From Candidatus Baldrarchaeum yapensis (GTDB taxonomy: Archaea > Asgardarchaeota > Baldrarchaeia > Baldrarchaeales > Baldrarchaeaceae): a stretch of DNA of 24,680 nucleotides. A program made the translations under genes and the position numbers. How positions within the stretch are numbered: position 1 is the stretch's first letter; each line of letters opens with the position of its first letter. This document shows positions 1,983-24,610 of this stretch, one piece after another. The notes under the pieces were generated by a model. The model ran no database searches. It saw only the letters and a list, made by a program, of their open reading frames with translations, and was not told the origin of the DNA. The stretch covers positions 1 to 24,680 of the forward strand of contig JAEOSH010000030.1 in NCBI GenBank assembly GCA_016840465.1, in the 5' to 3' direction.

Positions 1983-2618
1983 ATGCAGATAAAAATTGTA
2001 ACTAACTATATAGTTTTGGTGACCAGCGTGAAGTGCCAGCGCATCAGAGTTGTAGGCGTGGATCTCGCAGGATCTGAGAGAAGAGAAACCGGGTGGGCCT
2101 TACTAGATGGAAGAACGCTTACCGTTAAGAAATTATTTTCGGACGATGAAATAATAAGGGAAACACTAGATGCTCATCCTCTCGTGGTTGCAATAGATGC
2201 CCCACTTTCGCTACCGACCTCTGGTAAAATGCGCAGAGCCGATAGGGAGATGCATAGATTCGGGCTCCCAGTGCTGCCACCGCTTTTTCCGCACATGAGA
2301 ATGCTGACATACCGAGGTATTAGAATAGCACGCATCCTCAGATCACACGGCTTAAAAGTCATAGAGGTTCATCCTACATCAACACGAAAAATACTCGGAC
2401 TGCCCCCAAGAAAAGATCCTATGGTTATCCAAGATGCCATTACGAAATTGGGCTACAACGGGGACGTAAGGAGAAAAAGCCTGTCAATGCATGAGGTAGA
2501 CGCTATACTTGCGGCAATAACTGCAGAACTTTACATTCGGGGGCTGACCACAGAGGTTGGAGATCCGATGGAGGGAGTAATAATAATACCCCGTAGGAGT
2601 GATGAGCGCATTGAGTGA
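1983..2618 (+). CDS. DUF429 family protein (predicted RNase H-fold nuclease-like)
   Basis: About 211 residues. The conserved core includes VVGVDLAGSERRETGWALLD, VVAIDAPLSLP and HEVDAILAAITAELY, which match the DUF429 pattern: a GVD-A-G glycine-rich strand, an IDAPL motif and a terminal D-A--A helix. The fold is related to RNase H, and the acidic residues are candidates for metal binding; the family's substrate is not established. The start is uncertain. ATG 1983 lies close to where a transcript would begin from an AT-rich TATA-like sequence near 1957-1967. In-frame GTG codons at 2019 and 2028 would remove an N-terminus that looks unlike the family. The stop overlaps the start of the DP1 gene, so the two are probably co-transcribed. 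Confidence 0.75.
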   Translation: MQIKIVTNYIVLVTSVKCQRIRVVGVDLAGSERRETGWALLDGRTLTVKKLFSDDEIIRETLDAHPLVVAIDAPLSLPTSGKMRRADREMHRFGLPVLPPLFPHMRMLTYRGIRIARILRSHGLKVIEVHPTSTRKILGLPPRKDPMVIQDAITKLGYNGDVRRKSLSMHEVDAILAAITAELYIRGLTTEVGDPMEGVIIIPRRSDERIE

Positions 2619-3984
2619 GAATAATATTGCTCTTAAAATAGTGAAAAGACTCCTAAAAGAGGGATTGCACATAACTCCAGAGGCTCTCGATCTGCTTATT
2701 AAGACCGATAATCCCGAAGGCGCTCTCAACACTCTTCTCGAAAAACTAAAAGAAATGAAAGAGTTGCCAATAGTCGTTGATGTACCCCATCTGAGCAATA
2801 TCATACACCCGCCGGAAAAAGAGTTTCCGGAACGTGAGGAGATCACCATTGAAGAGTTTTCGATATTACGCCAGCCATCTTGGGACTCCTTTATGGGAAC
2901 AAATATGAACGCACGTGTAAATTACCTGAAGTCGAGATATGAGAAGTTAAAGTCCATATTCACGCAGCAATACGAGCACGTAAGTATTGCAGAGGCTAAG
3001 AAGTTCAAAAAAGGAGAAGTTGTTTCATTGGTAGCAATGATTACGGGTGTCAATCGCGAGGATGAGAAAGTAACAATGATGTTGGAGGACGAGTCCGGTG
3101 CGGTTCTAGCAATCGCTGATCTGAAGAATATGACCATATTTCCGGTGCCAGATATTGTCATTTATGTTAAAGGGGAAGTTGAAAGTCCAGATACCATAAT
3201 TGTAAAAGAAGTAAATCTGCCACCAGAAGACTTCGAAAAACGTCAATCACTTAAACCACCTTCCACAGTGTTTGCAGTGCTGATTTCTGATATACATGTA
3301 GGAAACCCGAATTTTGCTGAGGAACAGTTCAAAAAGTTGTTAAGGTGGATATCGCACAACCACAAATCCCTTAACATAAAATATATCATAATCGCGGGAG
3401 ATGTAGGAGAATTTTCACCAAGTTCCCCATACACTCCCTATGAAAGATTCTCACAACTTATCTCTCAGATACCATCGGAGATAAGAATAATAATCATACC
3501 TGGAGATAGCGATAGCCTCATCCCGACACTTCCACAGATTCCCCATAAGTTCATCCAGAAAATTGAGAAGTTGAGAAATAATATGCATGTGTTTGGAAAC
3601 CCTACACTTATCTCGCTATTAGGAGTGAAGATTTTTGTATACCATCCAATCGGACTCGAGAAGGTTGCATTATCGTTACCAGGCGTCACACGTCCCTCGC
3701 AAATTGTCGAATATCTAATAAAAACTCGATGCATGGCCCCCTACCTCGAAAAAGTTCCTGTATTGCCCCATAAGGATGATATCTTCGTACTAGAAGACGT
3801 TCCCGATGTCATACACTTAGGGCATCTACACTCCGCAGACTCCGGCCGCTATAAGAACCTGGTATATGTGTGCTCCGGTTCTTGGATAAAAAACGACCCC
3901 GGAAAACTGCCATTCTCACCATCCACATGCGTTGCACATCTCCTAAACCTAAAAACATTGGAAGTTCACGAAATTACCTTTTGA
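2602..3984 (+). CDS. polB: DNA polymerase II (PolD) small subunit DP1, with altered nuclease motif III
   Basis: About 460 residues. PolD is the archaeal replicative polymerase, and DP1 carries the MRE11-like 3'-5' proofreading exonuclease. Order seen: an N-terminal helical region (residues 1-50), an OB-fold (about 140-205), and a calcineurin-like phosphodiesterase domain (about 225-460). Motifs I (SDIHVG), II (AGDVG), the later His (FVYHP) and GHLH with SGRYKNLVYVCSGSW are all present. Motif III, normally GNHD, reads GDSD (bases 3502-3513), losing the Asn and the catalytic His; YHG reads YHP. Exonuclease activity is therefore doubtful (inference). The start overlaps the DUF429 stop: GTG 2599, ATG 2602 and TTG 2611 all lie near the weak site GGAG at 2596. 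The last 11 bases overlap the 3' end of cdc6. No DP2 gene is in the window. The symbol polB follows common archaeal usage. Confidence 0.9.
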   Translation: MSALSENNIALKIVKRLLKEGLHITPEALDLLIKTDNPEGALNTLLEKLKEMKELPIVVDVPHLSNIIHPPEKEFPEREEITIEEFSILRQPSWDSFMGTNMNARVNYLKSRYEKLKSIFTQQYEHVSIAEAKKFKKGEVVSLVAMITGVNREDEKVTMMLEDESGAVLAIADLKNMTIFPVPDIVIYVKGEVESPDTIIVKEVNLPPEDFEKRQSLKPPSTVFAVLISDIHVGNPNFAEEQFKKLLRWISHNHKSLNIKYIIIAGDVGEFSPSSPYTPYERFSQLISQIPSEIRIIIIPGDSDSLIPTLPQIPHKFIQKIEKLRNNMHVFGNPTLISLLGVKIFVYHPIGLEKVALSLPGVTRPSQIVEYLIKTRCMAPYLEKVPVLPHKDDIFVLEDVPDVIHLGHLHSADSGRYKNLVYVCSGSWIKNDPGKLPFSPSTCVAHLLNLKTLEVHEITF

Positions 3985-14890: not shown

Positions 14891-15676
14891 ATGGGCATTC
14901 GACTTCCAATGGAAATTAAACGACCAACTCTAGGTATCTATATGACCTTAGGGTACCCTGATGTTTCCAAATTTTCCGAGATTCTTGAAAATCTTGCTCC
15001 TTATGTGGGCTTCTATGAGATAGGGATACCAACGAGAAACCCGAAATACGATGGTCCGACAATACGTACAACTCATTACCATATGGTAAGAAGTGGAATC
15101 ACAGGATTGGAGGCGCTAAAACTTTTAGATAAGATCGAGATCATCAAGCCATTCACGATAATGGCCTATTTAAGCGAATTTATTGCTCAATTACGCCTTT
15201 TCTTAGAGGAAGCGGCAGCAGTGGGTGCACTCTGTGTGCTTTTTCCAGATTTGGCGTTCGAATATCCCGAGATGATTGACAAGTATATTGAGGAATCTGA
15301 AAGAGTCGGATTACGCACGTGCTTTTTTGCCTCCAGTAGATTTCCTCACCAGTGGCTCAGACTTTATGCTGCACTAAATCCTCTGTACATATATCTTGGA
15401 CTTCAACCGGCAACGGGCATTAAGTTACCAATATTCGTCGAGAAAAATGTTCGAATTGCCCGATTATTGATTGGAGATCGATATTTAGTCGTAGGATTTG
15501 CTATACGAACACCGGAGGTCGCATTATCGTTGATCAAGAATGGTGCGGATGCAATTGTCATCGGTTCCGCAATTATCGAACGTATTATTAATAACGATGT
15601 CAAAGGTGCCGTCGAACTTGCTCACAAAATACACGCCTCGATAAACATCAAAAATCATCCAACTGGATGCAGGTGA
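14891..15676 (+). CDS. trpA: Tryptophan synthase alpha subunit
   Basis: 261 residues. TrpA cleaves indole-3-glycerol phosphate to indole and glyceraldehyde-3-phosphate and passes indole to TrpB. The (beta/alpha)8 barrel shows MTLGYPD, FYEIGIPTRNPKYDGPTI with the catalytic Glu and Asp (the usual PFSDP reads PTRNP, as in some archaeal enzymes), FPDLAFEYPEMIDKYIEE, LGLQPATGIKLP, VVGFAIRTPEV and GADAIVIGSAII (phosphate site). It is first in the operon and follows the TATA element by about 50 bases. GGGGTG is too close to ATG 14891 to be an ideal site; ATG 14909 is an alternative. The next gene starts five bases after the stop. Confidence 0.95.
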   Translation: MGIRLPMEIKRPTLGIYMTLGYPDVSKFSEILENLAPYVGFYEIGIPTRNPKYDGPTIRTTHYHMVRSGITGLEALKLLDKIEIIKPFTIMAYLSEFIAQLRLFLEEAAAVGALCVLFPDLAFEYPEMIDKYIEESERVGLRTCFFASSRFPHQWLRLYAALNPLYIYLGLQPATGIKLPIFVEKNVRIARLLIGDRYLVVGFAIRTPEVALSLIKNGADAIVIGSAIIERIINNDVKGAVELAHKIHASINIKNHPTGCR

Positions 15677-15681
15677 TCGCA

Positions 15682-16974
15682 ATGACCTATTTACCGAGCT
15701 ATTGGTATAACATTGTTGCGGATCTCCCCGTGCCATTACCCCCCTTACTTGATCCACCTGAGTACGAATCCTCTAGGATTGCGCAACTAACAAAGATATT
15801 ACCATCACGAATCATCGACGAAGAGTATACATTGAATCGGTTAATAAGAATACCGGAGGAAGTTCGGGCAGTATATCGAAAAATAGGACGTCCAACTCCA
15901 CTTATACGAGCTGAAGGTTTTGAAAAAGCATTAGGGGTTCATAGAGTGGTCACGATTTATTATAAGTACGAAGGTGCACTTTTAGCGGGCAGTCATAAAC
16001 TGAATACTGCCGTGCCTCAAGTTTATTATGCTAAAACCGATGGAGCCAGTGAGGTCGTAACAGAGACTGGTGCAGGGCAATGGGGACTTGCAGTATCGAT
16101 GGCCGCAGCAATGTTAGGAGTTAAGGCGGCCATTTTCATGACAAGAAGTAGTTATTTAAGTAAGGTGTCACGCCGAATTGCGATGGAAGCTCTTGGGGCT
16201 AAGGTTATACCAAGTCCGAGCAGACGGACCAAAACGGGTAAGAATGCCCTCTACAGAAATGCGCATCATCCAGGTACCTTGGGGTTAGCAATAACCGAGG
16301 CAGTGGAGTACGTCCTCGCATCACCTTATCGGCGTTATGTGGCCGGATCGGTACTTGAGAGCGTTATAACTCATCAAACAGTAATAGGTCAGGAAGTTTT
16401 GCATCAAATGCCGGAAGAACCAGATTATATGGTGGCATGCGTTGGCGGCGGTAGCAATATGGCGGGATTCACGTATCCTGCCATCGGCATGAAACTTCGT
16501 GGTGAAGGGTTTGAGAAGACAAAATTTATTGCCGCAGAATCTGCAGCAGCCCCACGATTAAGCAGAGGGGAATATCGGTATGACGGGCTTGACACGGGTC
16601 TAGTTCTTCCTTTGGCGAAAATGTATACGTTAGGTAGGGAATATGTTCCTCCACCAATCCATGCTGCGGGTCTTCGGTACCATGGCGCATCCTCAAGCTT
16701 ATCGCTTCTTCGAAAGTTAGGATATATCAAGGCGGTAGCTTACGAGCAAGAGGAGGTTTTACGAGCGGCTATATTGTTCGCGAGGAGTGAGGGCATAATA
16801 CCGGCACCTGAAAGTGCACATGCTATTAAAGCCGTCATAGATATCTCCCACAAAGCACCTAAGGGAAGTGTAATAATTTTCAATTTGAGCGGTCACGGTC
16901 TCTTAGACACCGATGCTTATGAGTCGATATGTAATGAACTTGTTACTGGTGAAATTTCTGTTTTTAATGATTAA
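15682..16974 (+). CDS. trpB2: Tryptophan synthase beta subunit, TrpB2 type
   Basis: 430 residues from ATG 15682, which is preceded by AGGTGA; an ATG at 15667 would overlap trpA. It condenses indole with serine using PLP. The sequence is of the TrpB2 type rather than TrpB1: a long N-terminal extension, YYKYEGALLAGSHKLNTAVP with the PLP lysine, VVTETGAGQWGLAVSMAAAM with the catalytic Glu, ACVGGGSNMAGFTYPAIGM as the phosphate loop, and GIIPAPESAHAIKA. It is the only trpB here and sits directly behind trpA, as in Sulfolobus, where a TrpB2a is the operon enzyme and interacts only weakly with TrpA. Free-indole handling may therefore differ from the classical channelled complex (inference). Confidence 0.95.
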   Translation: MTYLPSYWYNIVADLPVPLPPLLDPPEYESSRIAQLTKILPSRIIDEEYTLNRLIRIPEEVRAVYRKIGRPTPLIRAEGFEKALGVHRVVTIYYKYEGALLAGSHKLNTAVPQVYYAKTDGASEVVTETGAGQWGLAVSMAAAMLGVKAAIFMTRSSYLSKVSRRIAMEALGAKVIPSPSRRTKTGKNALYRNAHHPGTLGLAITEAVEYVLASPYRRYVAGSVLESVITHQTVIGQEVLHQMPEEPDYMVACVGGGSNMAGFTYPAIGMKLRGEGFEKTKFIAAESAAAPRLSRGEYRYDGLDTGLVLPLAKMYTLGREYVPPPIHAAGLRYHGASSSLSLLRKLGYIKAVAYEQEEVLRAAILFARSEGIIPAPESAHAIKAVIDISHKAPKGSVIIFNLSGHGLLDTDAYESICNELVTGEISVFND

Positions 16975-16994
16975 TGTCGCATGGGGGAGTTATT

Positions 16995-18023
16995 GTGGAT
17001 CCGATGAATGTTCTTGAAAAATTGCTTGAGAGAGTAAGGATAAGCTTTTTGGAGGCGTACCAGATTGCAAGAGCAATAATTGATGGCAAATTTGACGAGA
17101 CAATTATTGCAGCGTTGCTTGTAGCACTTAGAGCGCATGGTGAGACTCCTGATATAATAGCGGGATTTGCTAAGGCTTTGCGCGAAGCTAGTTTGAAGGT
17201 AAATACGAGAGGGCTAAGCCCGATAGATACAGCTGGTACAGGAGGTGATGGTTTCCACACGATAAACGCTTCCACAGCAGCAGCGCTCGTAACTGCGAGT
17301 CTTGGCGTTCCTACGCTTAAACATGGAAACAGAAGTGTAAGTAGTCGGAGTGGGAGTGCCGATTTCTTAGAAGCACTAGGTTATAAAATAGATCACGGGC
17401 CGCATGAGGCCGAGTTCATGTTACGGAAAGTAGGTTTTGCCTTTCTTTATGCTCCAAGGTACCATCCAGCACTTAAAAGAGTGATGCCTATTAGGCGTAA
17501 GCTTGGTATAAGGACGATTTTCAACCTCATAGGTCCTCTCGCGAATCCAGGTAGTATTCGAATTCAAGTGTTGGGAGTTGCAAGCCCTAAACTTTTAGAA
17601 GTAATGACAACAGCTGCCTTGATGCTGAACTATGATAGAGTCCTTGTGGTTCATGGAAAACCGGGAATAGATGAGGTTAGTATCAGTGGGGAAACTGAAG
17701 TTTTCGAATTGAGGAGGAAATCTTTGGACAGGTATACGATATCACCGGAAGATTTGGGTTTACGTAGATATAGAATTGAGGATTTACGCGTATCGTCGCC
17801 TAATGAAAGTGCTAAAAGGTTCCTAGCGGTAATTAATGGTCACGGAAGCCCGGCAGACAGGGATTTTATAGCAGCAAATGCCGGGGCGGCGCTTTACGTC
17901 GCAGAACGTGCATCTGACATTCGTGATGGTGTAGAGATGGCCCTTCAGGCGATTGAAGAAGGAATAGTTGCGAAGTTTATAGATACTCTATGTGAGGTAT
18001 CGAAATATGCGGGATTGCGTTAA
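16995..18023 (+). CDS. trpD: Anthranilate phosphoribosyltransferase
   Basis: About 342 residues from GTG 16995, chosen because GGGGGAG lies five bases upstream and the product then begins DPMNVLEKLLERV, close to family N-termini; an ATG at 16974 overlapping the trpB2 stop is an alternative. The enzyme joins anthranilate to PRPP. Motifs: DTAGTGGDGFHTINASTAAA (PRPP glycine loop), KHGNRSVSSRSGSADFLEAL, KRVMPIRRKLGIRTIFNLIG with the anthranilate-binding arginine region, GPLANP and VVHGKPGIDEVS with the metal-binding acidic pair. Length and motif order are normal. Its end overlaps trpF by 17 bases. Confidence 0.96.
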   Translation: MDPMNVLEKLLERVRISFLEAYQIARAIIDGKFDETIIAALLVALRAHGETPDIIAGFAKALREASLKVNTRGLSPIDTAGTGGDGFHTINASTAAALVTASLGVPTLKHGNRSVSSRSGSADFLEALGYKIDHGPHEAEFMLRKVGFAFLYAPRYHPALKRVMPIRRKLGIRTIFNLIGPLANPGSIRIQVLGVASPKLLEVMTTAALMLNYDRVLVVHGKPGIDEVSISGETEVFELRRKSLDRYTISPEDLGLRRYRIEDLRVSSPNESAKRFLAVINGHGSPADRDFIAANAGAALYVAERASDIRDGVEMALQAIEEGIVAKFIDTLCEVSKYAGLR

Positions 18024-18702
18024 GGTAAAGATTTGTGGAATTACTAACCATAGGGATGCGGAGTTTGTGGATGGTCGCGTTGACTATGTTGGGTTCATTG
18101 TCTCGAAGTTCAAAATTAGCCCCAGAGTGTTGACTTTAAAAGAAGCAAGAAGCCTTGCAGAGGACATTCATTATAGTCGAAGAGTACTTGTCGTACATGG
18201 TTACGATTCTAAGGCTACTCTAAACATAGCCTCAAGATTGGAAGTCTTCGAAGTTATTCAATACCATCATGCAGAAAAGTTCGAGAATTTGCTATCTCTT
18301 GCGAATGATCTTAAACTCATAGGTATGAAAGTAGCTCCTGTTGCATTGTGGAGCGGTAATGGCTGGATTTCTCAAAACCCGTATATTTTGGCCAAGTTGC
18401 CAAATTACGAGTATTTGTTAATCGATGCTATCAAGACGGGAGGACAACGGTATGAGATGGGGTTACGTGTACCCCTCAAAGTATTCCGGAAACTTTCAGC
18501 TTGCCTGAAGAAAGTGGGAGCTGCTGGAGGAATAGATCCAACAAATGTGCATTTGGTAGTTTCTACAGGAGTATACATGGTTGATGTTAACAGTGGCATT
18601 GAAAGAAGTCCGGGCCGTAAAGATCCTGTCAAGACACTTAAGTTTCTGGAGGTGGTGAGAAATGCTACCATTAAGGACAACTATTTGGGAAGAGGCTCGT
18701 AA
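18007..18702 (+). CDS. trpF: Phosphoribosylanthranilate isomerase
   Basis: 231 residues from ATG 18007, with GAGGT eight bases upstream inside the end of trpD. It catalyses the Amadori rearrangement of phosphoribosylanthranilate to CdRP. The general base Cys is in VKICGIT, and the general acid Asp is in YLLIDAIKTGGQRY. The phosphate sites are AAGGIDPTNV and VDVNSGIERSPGRKDPVKTL. The usual VGFxF stretch reads YVGFIVSKFKISPRVLT. It is a somewhat divergent but complete TrpF. The last 41 bases overlap trpE, a sign of tight translational coupling. Confidence 0.94.
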   Translation: MRDCVKVKICGITNHRDAEFVDGRVDYVGFIVSKFKISPRVLTLKEARSLAEDIHYSRRVLVVHGYDSKATLNIASRLEVFEVIQYHHAEKFENLLSLANDLKLIGMKVAPVALWSGNGWISQNPYILAKLPNYEYLLIDAIKTGGQRYEMGLRVPLKVFRKLSACLKKVGAAGGIDPTNVHLVVSTGVYMVDVNSGIERSPGRKDPVKTLKFLEVVRNATIKDNYLGRGS

Positions 18703-19972
18703 AATTCCATTGAGTCATGCTCCAGATCCCTACCACCTGGTTGCATGGGCCGAAGAACAGACCTGTCATGTAGCGCTTCTAGAGGGATATTGTGGTCTTA
18801 GTGGTTGGTCCCGGTATACAATAGTAGCGTATGGAAAAAAGCATAAGGTTGAGGAAGAAAACCCATTTAAGGCATATAAAGCCTTAGAAAAGATTACATC
18901 GGCGAATTATAAAAGTGTACCATGTCCGGATATGGTTTTTGGCGTTGTTGGATATGAGGCAGTTGTATCAGTAGAGCCGTGGTTAGGTAGCATGTTAAAA
19001 AGACACAGATGGCCAGTAGTTATTGCATTTAAGCCGGAAGTTTTAGTAGTCTATGACAAATTACTAGGAAACGTAATAATTTATCCGGAAGATACGGATT
19101 TGGGTAAAAAGGATATAAATGGATGGAGGCCGGCACAAGGGCCAATTTACGAGACTCCAAAAGAAACCTTTGAGGAATGGGTTAAGGAAGCATTAACACT
19201 TTTGGATAAAGGAGAATTTTTGCAAATTGTGCTGTCGAGAGTTGAGCAATACGAGTATCAAGGCGAGCCACTGGCTCTCTATAAAAGACTTGCTCAGAAG
19301 AGCCCATCGCCATATATGTTCTATATGCGGTTCGATGACAGATGGATACTAGGGTCAAGTCCTGAACTACTAGTCAAAATGGAGAATGGCCGCCTAGAGA
19401 CTTGTCCAATAGCGGGTACAAGGCCCCGTGGGGTGACGCCCGAAGAGGATCTTGCGTTAGAAGAGGAATTGCTCAGAGATGAAAAAGAGATAGCTGAACA
19501 CCTTATGCTCGTAGATCTTGCAAGGAACGATTTAGGAAGGGTAGCACGTCCAGGTACCGTTAAGGTATTGAAGTTCATGGATGTAGAAAAATATAGTGGT
19601 GTACAACACATAGTAAGCCGTATTGAGGCGGATGCGCACCTAGGAGTAACATATATCGATGTACTCGCATCAATGAACCCTGCTGGAACGGTATCTGGGG
19701 CGCCTAAACCGAGAGCCATGGAGGTTATTGCCAAACTTGAGGATGAACCGCGGGGCCCTTATGCCGGTGCTGTTGGCATGTACTCAAAATATGCTGGGGA
19801 GACTGCTATAACAATACGAAGCTTGTGGAATATCGATGACAGCACAATCGAAGTAAGGGCTGGTGCAGGAATAGTTTATGATTCCAAACCGTATCGCGAA
19901 TATTTGGAAATTAAGTACAAGTTAAATGCGATATATCAGGCGCTTGGAATAAACGTGGAAAAAATTTTCTGA
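18662..19972 (+). CDS. trpE: Anthranilate synthase component I
   Basis: 436 residues from ATG 18662, with GGAGGTGG upstream. With TrpG it converts chorismate and glutamine to anthranilate. The chorismate-binding domain is complete: FLQIVLSRVEQYEYQG, PSPYMFYMRFDDRWILGSSP, PIAGTRPRGVTPEEDLALEE, EHLMLVDLARNDLGRVARPG, NPAGTVSGAPKPRAMEVI and RAGAGIVYDSKPYREYLEIK. The N-terminal LLES motif that binds tryptophan for feedback inhibition in characterised enzymes reads LLEG here (residues 39-42, Gly codon at 18785), so regulation may be altered (inference). Length matches archaeal TrpE (about 420-440). Confidence 0.96.
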   Translation: MLPLRTTIWEEARKIPLSHAPDPYHLVAWAEEQTCHVALLEGYCGLSGWSRYTIVAYGKKHKVEEENPFKAYKALEKITSANYKSVPCPDMVFGVVGYEAVVSVEPWLGSMLKRHRWPVVIAFKPEVLVVYDKLLGNVIIYPEDTDLGKKDINGWRPAQGPIYETPKETFEEWVKEALTLLDKGEFLQIVLSRVEQYEYQGEPLALYKRLAQKSPSPYMFYMRFDDRWILGSSPELLVKMENGRLETCPIAGTRPRGVTPEEDLALEEELLRDEKEIAEHLMLVDLARNDLGRVARPGTVKVLKFMDVEKYSGVQHIVSRIEADAHLGVTYIDVLASMNPAGTVSGAPKPRAMEVIAKLEDEPRGPYAGAVGMYSKYAGETAITIRSLWNIDDSTIEVRAGAGIVYDSKPYREYLEIKYKLNAIYQALGINVEKIF

Positions 19973-19985
19973 TGGAGGCAAAAAT

Positions 19986-20576
19986 ATGGCATATGACACT
20001 CTCGTTCTGATAATCGACAATTATGACAGTTTTGTTTATAATCTAGTTCATGTACTAGCAGAATTTGGTGCGCGTTGCATCGTTGTGCGCAACGACGAAA
20101 TATCAGTATCGGGGATAAAAAGAATAATGCCGGACCGCATAATAATATCTCCGGGTCCCGGGTCTCCGACAGTTCCTCGTGATATTGGCATATCGCTCGA
20201 AGTTGTTCGTAAACTGGGAGAAGAGGTACCAATACTAGGAGTATGTCTGGGTCATCAAGTGATAGGGATCGCATATGGTGCAATTGTAAGACGTGCTAAG
20301 AGAGTATTGCACGGAAAAATAGACAATATAGAGCACTATGGAGATAAGCTATACCGTAATGTTCCTAAGGTGTTTACTGCCGTGCGATATCATAGTCTGG
20401 TTTTAGATAACATTCCTGAGGAGTTAATAGTAACCGCTAGAAGCAAGACCGATGGTGAAATCATGGGACTGAGCCATGTGGAACATCCTATCTGGGGGGT
20501 TCAGTTTCATCCAGAGAGCATAGCTACGCCCATCGGTCCAACAATATTGAAAAACTTTCTCGACAATCCATGGTGA
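19986..20576 (+). CDS. trpG: Anthranilate synthase component II (glutamine amidotransferase)
   Basis: 196 residues, with GGAGGC six bases before ATG 19986. It supplies ammonia from glutamine to TrpE. The class I amidotransferase triad is intact: nucleophile Cys in ILGVCLGHQVIG, and His and Glu in WGVQFHPESIATP. The N-terminal IDNYDSFVYNLVHVLAEFGA and oxyanion segment SPGPGSPTVPRDIG are typical of TrpG. The product lacks any fusion to TrpD or TrpC, the common archaeal arrangement. It sits 13 bases after trpE and 8 bases before the preferred trpC start. Confidence 0.96.
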   Translation: MAYDTLVLIIDNYDSFVYNLVHVLAEFGARCIVVRNDEISVSGIKRIMPDRIIISPGPGSPTVPRDIGISLEVVRKLGEEVPILGVCLGHQVIGIAYGAIVRRAKRVLHGKIDNIEHYGDKLYRNVPKVFTAVRYHSLVLDNIPEELIVTARSKTDGEIMGLSHVEHPIWGVQFHPESIATPIGPTILKNFLDNPW

Positions 20577-20584
20577 AGGAAAAA

Positions 20585-21373
20585 ATGGAACGGAAGGGCT
20601 TCTTAAGATCGGCTTTTCTGCGCAGTGTAGAGAGAATAAATTTATTAAGAAATCCACCGAGGCCGTATGGTCTTCGTAGGATTATAAAACATATAAGAGA
20701 GGTTGAGAAAAGGCCTGCAATGATAATAGAATATAAGCGTTGCGGGCCACGAGGATTTTTGAAACACTACACTCCATGGGACTACATTCGTAAAACAATC
20801 TCCATTGCCGATGCTTATTCCGTGTTAGTAGAACCGTACTGGTTTTGTGGAAGTCTAGAATTGATTCCATGGTTTGCACAATATCGCCCGGTTCTGGCAA
20901 AAGACTTTGTTGTCTCATTCCAACAACTTTTAACATACAGACAAAAGGGAGCATCGGCGGCACTTCTCATATTGGATATGCTTGGCTGGGAAATGTTAGA
21001 TGACCTATACGCTGATGCCATGGACATAGGCATTGAAGTGGTAATCGAGACGAGTAACGCAAATGATGCACTGGAGGTTATGCATAGTTACCCTAATGCT
21101 ATGATCGGGTTAAATGCTCGAGATTTAAAGACTCTTAATGTCAACTTTACAAAACTGCTAACAGAAATATCTAAAGTGGTATCTCAGAAACCGTCTAATG
21201 CTTTATTAATTGCAGAAAGTGGTATAGACTCCTTAGATAAGGCGTTGAAGCTTGCTGAACTCGGAGTGGACGGTATGCTTATAGGAACTTGGGTTATGAA
21301 AGACCCATCAACTGCATCGAAAAAACTCGTATTGCTTAAGAATAAGGAACGAAACCATGTAGAACATGGATAA
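20585..21373 (+). CDS. trpC: Indole-3-glycerol phosphate synthase
   Basis: About 262 residues from ATG 20585, preceded by GGTGA; ATG 20570, overlapping the trpG stop, is an alternative. It closes the indole ring of CdRP. Catalytic residues known from the Sulfolobus enzyme can be matched: Glu/Lys in IIEYKRCGPRG (the usual SPSG reads GPRG), Lys in VLAKDFVVSFQQ, Glu in VVIETSNANDAL, Asn in MIGLNARDLKTLNV, Ser in LIAESGIDSLDK. The barrel ends with GVDGMLIGTWVMKD. It is the last gene of the operon; no strong terminator hairpin is seen in the about 60 bases before the convergent alba gene. Confidence 0.95.
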   Translation: MERKGFLRSAFLRSVERINLLRNPPRPYGLRRIIKHIREVEKRPAMIIEYKRCGPRGFLKHYTPWDYIRKTISIADAYSVLVEPYWFCGSLELIPWFAQYRPVLAKDFVVSFQQLLTYRQKGASAALLILDMLGWEMLDDLYADAMDIGIEVVIETSNANDALEVMHSYPNAMIGLNARDLKTLNVNFTKLLTEISKVVSQKPSNALLIAESGIDSLDKALKLAELGVDGMLIGTWVMKDPSTASKKLVLLKNKERNHVEHG

Positions 21374-23420: not shown

Positions 23421-23566
23421 TGGTGCCGGGGCCGGGATTTGAACCCGGGACCTCCGGATCTCTCAGATGGCAACCCTATGAGTTTCACCCGCCGATCTGA
23501 TAATCGGCAACCGGCGCTCTAACCAGGCTGAGCTACTCCGGCCGCGGGTATGCCGCGGTCCCCGGC
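23421..23566 (-). tRNA. tRNA-Met (CAT), probably elongator, with three introns
   Basis: The mature tRNA (75 bases plus encoded CCA) is assembled from four exons: 23566-23560, 23535-23511, 23483-23477 and 23459-23421. It has acceptor GCCGGGG/CCCCGGC, D arm GCTC/GAGC, anticodon stem CCGGA/TCCGG with loop CTCATAA, and T arm CCGGG-TTCAAAT-CCCGG. Intron 1 (23559-23536, 24 bases) lies at 7/8, intron 2 (23510-23484, 27 bases) at 30/31 and intron 3 (23476-23460, 17 bases) at 37/38. Introns 2 and 3 form full BHB motifs: bulges GG|T and AA|A around CGCC/GGTG, and TA|G and AG|A around CTCA/TGAG. Intron 1 has bulges GG|A and AG|T around CCGG/CCGG, with a CCGCGG hairpin but a poor outer helix. tRNA-Ile2 (CAT) is not excluded. 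Confidence 0.88.
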
Positions 23567-23840
23567 GCACTTCTGGCCCCGGCTGTAAATAGAATACCTT
23601 ATATGCGTTATAAAACTTTTCTTAGGAACTCTAAGGTAGCGATATGATATGAGAGTTCAAGTGAATGGAAAACTAGATGTAGGAAAAACGATTTCCGAAC
23701 ATCTCTTCGTTGTCCCTGTCGTTCGGCTAAAAAATCTGATACGACGAATATGAAACCATTTACTTTTTCTGCTGGATGCATGAACTAACGAAAAACTTAT
23801 TTGACACCCATAATCATATTCTACAACGTGGATAATGCGT

Positions 23841-24008
23841 GGGGCCGTAGTCTAGCCAGGTAGGACGGCAGAACCCTGGGTCTCAGGGTTCCGTTAAGGG
23901 CTCCAGAAGAGTGATCTACAACGGGTTTACCGACCGTACGGGATGAAGAACTTCTGGAGCGCTAGAGAAACCCGTTGATCGCGGGTTCAAATCCCGCCGG
24001 CCCCACCA
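23841..24008 (+). tRNA. tRNA-Trp (CCA) with two introns
   Basis: Exons 23841-23869, 23898-23906 and 23970-24008 give a 77-base tRNA with encoded CCA: acceptor GGGGCCG/CGGCCCC, D arm GTCT/GGAC, anticodon stem GCGGG/CCCGT with loop CTCCAGA, T arm GCGGG-TTCAAAT-CCCGC, A73. Intron 1 (23870-23897, 28 bases) is at 28/29, with an eight-pair hairpin GAACCCTG/CAGGGTTC, bulges GC|A and AA|G and central helix GACG/CGTT. Intron 2 (23907-23969, 63 bases) is at the usual 37/38 site, with bulges AG|A and AA|A; its central helix has one mismatch. Intron 2 also looks like a methylation guide (separate entry). Confidence 0.9.
23907..23969 (+). ncRNA. tRNA-Trp intron as a degenerate box C/D methylation guide
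   Basis: Inside the 63-base intron, ACAACGGGT (23919-23927) pairs with ACCCGTTG(T/A) of the 3' exon and is followed by a D'-like CCGA; the fifth base upstream of that box faces position 39. CTTCTGGAGC (23951-23960) pairs with GCTCCAGAAG of the anticodon loop and is followed by CTAG in D-box position; the fifth base upstream faces C34. C-like GTGATCT (23911-23917) and C'-like GGGATGA (23940-23946) complete the order C, D', C', D. In euryarchaea the tRNA-Trp intron guides methylation at exactly 34 and 39. The boxes here are degenerate, so function is uncertain; the second pairing could instead be a rival fold. Confidence 0.5.
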
Positions 24009-24028
24009 AAACTATTTCTTATACACGT

Positions 24029-24156
24029 GGGGCCGTGGTCTAGCTTGGTATGATGCCAGTGCCGTAAATCTCACGGCGGTGAAGCTTGGGACCTGGTGGA
24101 CCGGAGGACGAGTCCTCCGGGCCAAATCCCGGGTTCAAATCCCGGCGGCCCCACCA
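24029..24156 (+). tRNA. tRNA-Pro (TGG) with two introns
   Basis: Exons 24029-24059, 24084-24099 and 24127-24156 give a 77-base tRNA with encoded CCA: acceptor GGGGCCG/CGGCCCC, anticodon stem CCAGG/CCTGG, loop CTTGGGA, T arm CCGGG-TTCAAAT-CCCGG. Intron 1 (24060-24083, 24 bases) is at 30/31, the same site as in tRNA-Met, with bulges AG|T and AA|G, central helix TGCC/GGTG and inner stem GCCGT/ACGGC. Intron 2 (24100-24126, 27 bases) is in the variable loop at about 46/47, with bulges GG|A and AA|T, central helix TGGT/GCCA and an eight-pair inner stem CCGGAGGA/TCCTCCGG. It starts only 20 bases after tRNA-Trp. Confidence 0.9.
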
Positions 24157-24204
24157 TTCAGAAACTTTTTAAAATCTAGGAACGGGATAATAAGCCAAGA
24201 TATA

Positions 24205-24278
24205 GCCGCCGTAGCTCAGCCTGGTGGAGCGGCGGGCTTGTAACCCGCCGGTCCCGGGTTCAAATCCCGGCGGCGGCT
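24205..24278 (+). tRNA. tRNA-Thr (TGT), no intron
   Basis: Uninterrupted cloverleaf: acceptor GCCGCCG/CGGCGGC, D arm GCTC/GAGC, anticodon stem GCGGG/CCCGC with loop CTTGTAA (anticodon 24239-24241), T arm CCGGG-TTCAAAT-CCCGG, discriminator T. Unlike the other four tRNAs here, CCA is not encoded. Confidence 0.96.
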
Positions 24279-24505
24279 TCACTTCGTAGCTTTGTTTTTA
24301 TTTGGGCTACTGTGGAGTTCGGCTCGTCATTAATTCGGTAAAAACTCGCATCTGGATTGTGTATAGTTTTATTCTTTAAATAATGGCATTTAATTTGATA
24401 GTAGTCTCCAATGAGATGTATTTAGAAATTGCTTGAAGACATCTTCTGATGAAAATTTGCTCAGATAAACTGTGAATGTAGTATACCGATTTAGTGAGGA
24501 ATTAC

Positions 24506-24610
24506 TGGTGCGGGGGGTGGGATTTGAACCCACGCAGGCCTGCGCCAGCGGATCTTAAGTCCGCCGCCTCTGGACATCTAGCCCCATTGTCCGGGCTCGG
24601 CCACCCCCGC
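24506..24610 (-). tRNA. tRNA-Leu (TAA) with an intron in the D loop
   Basis: Class II tRNA with encoded CCA: acceptor GCGGGGG/CCCCCGC, anticodon stem GCGGA/TCCGC with loop CTTAAGA, a variable arm with stem GGC/GCC, and T arm GTGGG/CCCAC. The D arm is normal only if 17 bases (24586-24570) are removed, leaving GCCG-AGCCCGGACAA-AGGC. The splice motif has bulges AA|T and AG|A around GGAC/GTCC, with a ten-base loop and no inner stem. The intron lies at about 21/22 and has the same size and layout as the 17-base intron at 37/38 of tRNA-Met. Confidence 0.88.

Follow-up and report, generated by a model that had tools for sequence, protein, structure and literature searches.

tRNA genes crowded with introns have been described in the Asgard lineages Atabeyarchaeia and Freyarchaeia, in which 92-95% of tRNA genes are interrupted, often by multiple and non-canonical introns (Valentin-Alvarado et al., 2024; PMC11291895). 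Multi-intron tRNA genes are also known from Thermoproteales (Sugahara et al., 2008, as cited in PMC4090602 and PMC4033280). The pre-tRNA-Trp intron of the Haloferax volcanii type contains an archaeal box C/D guide (reviewed in PMC4090602), and a Crenarchaea-specific loop of the splicing endonuclease has been tied to relaxed substrate recognition and diverse introns (PMC12397907).

We analyzed a window of 24,680 nucleotides (G000:C51:1-24680) from a 2.27-Mb assembly of 100 contigs that is 96% complete. The source genome (G000) is an Asgard archaeon of the order of Baldrarchaeota Yap30.bin4.67. The phosphoglycerate kinase (PGK) gene adjoining its tRNA cluster exhibited 64% identity to PGK of Baldrarchaeota Yap30.bin4.67 (G003) and of Odinarchaeota AUK032 (G001), both of which belong to the same order as G000 and to a different family. 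The window also contains Cdc6 and Alba genes, as well as a DP1-type gene for the small subunit of PolD (2599-3984). A run of tryptophan biosynthesis genes (14891-21373) adjoins the cluster; TrpA was identified by Pfam and its neighbours by eye, with TrpB having a TrpB2-type look.

An earlier reading of this DNA without database searches (the sequence-only reading) had held the intron density of the cluster to be notable in a PolD-bearing archaeon. The DP1-type gene bears out PolD, but the implied rarity is outdated by the 2024 Asgard report (PMC11291895) and by denser introns in close relatives; since crowded Asgard tRNA introns were published there, the locus is a new example rather than a new phenomenon. 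Like Atabeyarchaeia and Freyarchaeia, G000 is an Asgard archaeon in which many tRNA genes are interrupted more than once and at non-canonical sites, some of the introns being missed by standard scans. In contrast to the 92-95% given for those lineages, 25 of its 46 parsed tRNA genes (54%) are interrupted, and its order is not mentioned in the available parts of PMC11291895. Crowded non-canonical tRNA introns are thereby extended to a Baldrarchaeota-related Asgard branch.

Five tRNA genes and eight introns

tRNA genes were identified using a custom-written parser that starts from the T-arm, walks 5' through up to four introns, and scores stems and conserved bases. Each intron was required to have ends forming a bulge-helix-bulge (BHB) motif, with a central helix of 4 bp between two 3-nt bulges, each cut between its second and third bases. 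The parser was run with a high intron penalty and a minimum exon length. This independent approach returned all eight introns that the sequence-only reading had placed, site by site, in four of five clustered genes, i.e., three in tRNA-Met, two each in tRNA-Trp and tRNA-Pro(TGG), one in tRNA-Leu(TAA) and none in tRNA-Thr(TGT).

The elongator-type tRNA-Met(CAT) gene lies on the minus strand (23424..23566; parser score 41.8) and encodes its 3' CCA (23421-23423). Its introns are found at 7/8 (24 nt, ACCGCGGCATACCCGCGGCCGGAG, 23536..23559; BHB score 7.9), 30/31 (27 nt, 23484..23510; 7.7) and 37/38 (17 nt, 23460..23476; 6.2). On the plus strand, tRNA-Trp(CCA) (23841..24005; score 36.8; encoded CCA at 24006-24008) is interrupted at 28/29 (28 nt, 23870..23897; 6.5) and 37/38 (63 nt, 23907..23969; 4.8), and tRNA-Pro(TGG) (24029..24153; score 36.7; encoded CCA at 24154-24156) at 30/31 (24 nt, 24060..24083; 6.4) and 46/47 (27 nt, 24100..24126; 6.5). 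The intron-free tRNA-Thr(TGT) (24205..24278, plus strand; score 42.1) was called by ARAGORN, Rfam and the parser. Finally, tRNA-Leu(TAA) on the minus strand (24509..24610; score 36.7; encoded CCA at 24506-24508) has a single intron at 21/22 (17 nt, 24570..24586; 4.9, with four central pairs). BHB scores averaged 6.4 over the eight introns, and the largest mean among 2000 shuffles was 1.6. Seven of the sites have a central helix of four pairs; at Trp 37/38 it has three, and the one mismatched pair noted there earlier was seen as CTCC/AGAG.

Removal of the introns restored a canonical tRNA cloverleaf by both the parser and ARAGORN, as had been claimed for each removal, and ARAGORN named the four spliced sequences Met-CAT, Trp-CCA, Pro-TGG and Leu-TAA. 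Minimum-energy folding was uninformative as a test: the spliced Met alone adopted a cloverleaf, with Trp, Pro and Leu folding otherwise. Unspliced, the same four sequences gave no tRNA with ARAGORN or, when introns were allowed, Gly, Pyl, Thr and Asp. When run on the window, ARAGORN detected Thr-TGT alone, and Rfam detected Thr together with a 119-nt match at the Met locus; a whole-genome Rfam search added a 125-nt match at the Pro locus. Both tools therefore see the cluster incompletely, which agrees with the earlier expectation that scans would miss or misname these genes. In practice, annotation of Asgard tRNA sets needs a search for multi-intron genes; otherwise errors will enter, and tRNAs that read certain codons will be falsely scored as absent.

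The intron calls for the cluster are confirmed, with Met 7/8 the least certain of the eight. We are highly confident that all five tRNA genes of the cluster are functional and that four are interrupted by BHB introns, which would be spliced by the endonuclease and would be mostly neutral, Trp 37/38 excepted. A flexible parser can assemble cloverleaves from random DNA, in which case the inserts would be chance output of the search and only tRNA fragments would be present. The observed scores, however, were never reached by 160 dinucleotide shuffles of the sequence upstream of the four type-I genes (maximum 28.0), or by T-arm look-alikes at non-tRNA positions elsewhere in the genome (20.9 or less). 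Given also that ARAGORN, which was not tuned here, correctly names the spliced products, a chance origin is scarcely credible. It is likewise very improbable that the interrupted genes are decaying pseudogenes backed by intact copies elsewhere. Although a few genes may be unseen in an assembly of 100 contigs and 96% completeness, the 46-gene census of G000 contained only a single gene each for Trp, Pro-TGG, Leu-TAA and GCCGGGG-type Met, and selection is suggested by the compensated stems, by the encoding of CCA and by the sites shared with orthologues in relatives.

The 7/8 insert of tRNA-Met

The insert at Met 7/8 is quite probably an intron. Both the central and the inner helix of its BHB form all four pairs, and the BHB score of 7.9 is near the maximum of 8.4. 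Read as an intron, it yields GCCGGGG exactly as in L207, L208, L013 and L014, and relatives are contiguous at this position (GCCGGGGTAGCTC). Alternatively, the other seven introns would be real and the 7/8 insert would be a structured long leader, with RNase P cutting before GCCGGAG and an A6-C67 mismatch being kept. ARAGORN does accept this form of the tRNA, with its one-mismatch acceptor stem. Moreover, part of the exon-intron repeat, namely CCGG, is imposed by the palindromic central helix, so that the repetition counts for little by itself. However, a leader would forgo both the exact match to the four relatives and the near-maximal BHB, and it would leave the TATA-like box TTTATAAC too distant, at about -72, a spacing that fits badly with other tRNA genes. 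We consider the leader unlikely.

If the insert is an intron, its length may be either 24 or 41 nt because GCCGGGG is repeated: it stands twice before the intron, which ends with GCCGGAG. The 41-nt alternative starts from the upstream GCCGGGG copy, has a BHB score of 5.1 and gives an identical mature tRNA. Only if the intron is present, with an upstream GCCGGGG copy as exon 1, does the TATA-like box lie at -48 or -31. Both values are inside the broad range of TATA-like positions of other tRNA genes, and promoter spacing, which was tried as a means of choosing between the two lengths, fits either. An origin of the intron by tandem duplication of GCCGGGG is not claimed, given that the self-complementarity of the central helix already dictates four of the repeated bases, CCGG. 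The extra GCCGGGG (window 23567-23590) lies 17 nt upstream of Met exon 1 and could be an alternative 5' exon.

The Met exons match those of the Met genes of L208 (in G062) and G003. In L208 the exon runs from GCCGGGG to the anticodon without a break, and an intron follows at 37/38. At 30/31, L207 and L208 are contiguous and G003 has a different intron. The 37/38 site is common to G003 and L208. The G003 Met gene carries introns at 30/31 and 37/38, both differing in sequence from those of G000; a third interrupts its T-loop, and its 7/8 site is intron-free. This three-intron gene (L173:956-1160; G003:C13:66680 onward; also L013 and L014), in which the T-loop intron follows TTCGAAT, is thereby hidden from searches based on the T-arm.

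A putative guide intron in tRNA-Trp and the splicing endonuclease

The Trp 37/38 intron keeps the known box C/D guide architecture and is predicted to direct 2'-O-methylation of positions 34 and 39. Its D' guide CAACGGGTTTA and D' box CCGA (23919..23933, plus strand) form ten consecutive pairs with the exon, and the fifth base from the CCGA box pairs with Trp position 39. Downstream, a C' box GGGATGA, the guide TTCTGGAGCG and a degenerate D box CTAGA occupy 23940..23966 on the same strand; this guide opposes the anticodon and, provided that CTAGA acts as the D box, C34 falls at the +5 position. Compared with consensus, the C' box is good, the D' box is one base off, the C box is weak or degenerate and the D box is degenerate.

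A homologous intron with the same arrangement is present in G001 and G003, with boxes TTGA and GTGA, and other Asgard genomes show CTGA, GATGA/GGATGA and TTCTGGAG in like order at Trp 37/38. Pairing of the D' guide with position 39 is kept in the order of G000 and in L264; it was not found with the gene's own position 39 in L249-L253 and L256, where the D' and C' boxes and the anticodon guide are kept. The intron resembles that of Haloferax volcanii in its length (about 65 nt in the latter), its 37/38 site and its guides to 34 and 39 by the +5 rule. It differs in that position 39 is C here and U there, and in that its D and D' boxes are degenerate. At 28/29, G003 Trp has no intron and carries one at 21/22 instead, with 37/38 common to both genomes.

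Genes for a heteromeric splicing endonuclease, proposed earlier as a check on the intron calls, are present: G000 has two PF01974 genes (C56:16145-16384 and C53:4158-4412). The 193-aa subunit retains the active-site Tyr, His and Lys; the 195-aa subunit has neither the catalytic His nor the loop. The former is closest to the PDB entries for the catalytic subunits of Aeropyrum pernix, Sulfolobus tokodaii and Pyrobaculum aerophilum. Its RKPK aligns with EKPR of A. pernix (K44-P45-R46), which belongs to the Crenarchaea-specific loop. A K-P-[KR] loop of GIRKPK type was found in the N-terminal part of all 30 Asgard catalytic subunits compared (L211-L240; 25 tallied by script and five by reading the sequences), as RKP[KR] in 29 and as PKPR in L227. 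The predicted enzyme is thus like the (alpha-beta)2 endonuclease of A. pernix in having two genes, a Y/H/K catalytic subunit and a K-P-[KR] loop, and differs in being known here from its genes and in carrying the loop in Asgard archaea, for which the name 'Crenarchaea-specific' does not fit. A text search of PMC12397907 gave no mention of Asgard archaea, so that, as far as the open-access literature goes, the phylum-wide loop may be unreported.

Splicing would follow the usual archaeal BHB route, with a heteromeric endonuclease. The two-subunit enzyme of G000 most likely cuts the BHB introns, after which the exons would be ligated, and its loop-bearing catalytic subunit appears to resemble the broad-specificity crenarchaeal enzymes. 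Most introns are probably neutral to selection and tolerated by such an enzyme wherever a BHB can form, the likely exception being Trp 37/38 with its box C/D guide architecture. Here, among the closest archaeal relatives of eukaryotes, intron crowding is paired with a loop thought to relax recognition. An evenly balanced possibility is that a loop-bearing, broad-specificity two-subunit endonuclease is ancestral to Asgard archaea rather than peculiar to crenarchaea, was inherited before eukaryotic TSEN, and permitted ongoing gain and loss of introns at many sites, including 7/8 and 8/9.

Intron turnover among related genomes

The 25 interrupted genes of G000 contain 35 introns, with more than one in nine genes, as compared with 52 introns in 28 of 33 parsed genes in G002 and 53 in 28 of 38 in G003; all of these counts are lower bounds, given that the parser missed the three-intron Met gene of G003, whose T-arm is split by an intron. 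Genes for Asn and Ile2 tRNAs were missing from the G000 set. Because G003 is 9% contaminated, its genes without introns may in part come from other organisms. The intron density of the window is above the G000 average and only moderately unusual for the order.

The cluster is partly syntenic in G003, where Trp, Met, PGK and Thr stand together and Pro and Leu lie further on. Site by site, the insert of G000 is missing in relatives or another intron is found there. The Pro-TGG 30/31 intron is absent from G002 and G003, which have a D-arm intron instead; the 46/47 site is common to Pro-TGG of G002 and G003 and to Pro-CGG of G000. The Leu paralogues of G000 are contiguous at 21/22. Orthologues of the intron-free Thr-TGT carry two introns each in G002 and G003. 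With exons conserved and sites empty or differently occupied, two families within a single order differ through gain or loss of intron sites, i.e., rapid turnover is visible within a partly syntenic cluster.

As in Thermoproteales, single genes carry as many as three BHB introns, and the endonuclease is heteromeric with an extra loop. In that other phylum, however, similar introns occur in different tRNAs and point to transposition, whereas within G000 the most similar pair of introns reached 0.60, none exceeded 0.6, and no convincing relationship between introns of different tRNAs was seen.

Several further genes of G000 were recorded in the course of the census. The same tRNA-Phe gene occurs at the ends of two contigs (L109, G000:C66:6-89; L121, G000:C78:56-139), which probably reflects an assembly overlap, and was counted once. 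Two tRNA-Thr(GGT) genes (L130, G000:C89; L100, G000:C53) have differing bodies, one being intron-free, and L130 may be a contaminant of the bin. The tRNA-His(GTG) gene (L122, G000:C78) has introns of 22 nt each at 8/9 and 29/30 (BHB score 7.4), the former being the second junction-site intron in this genome.
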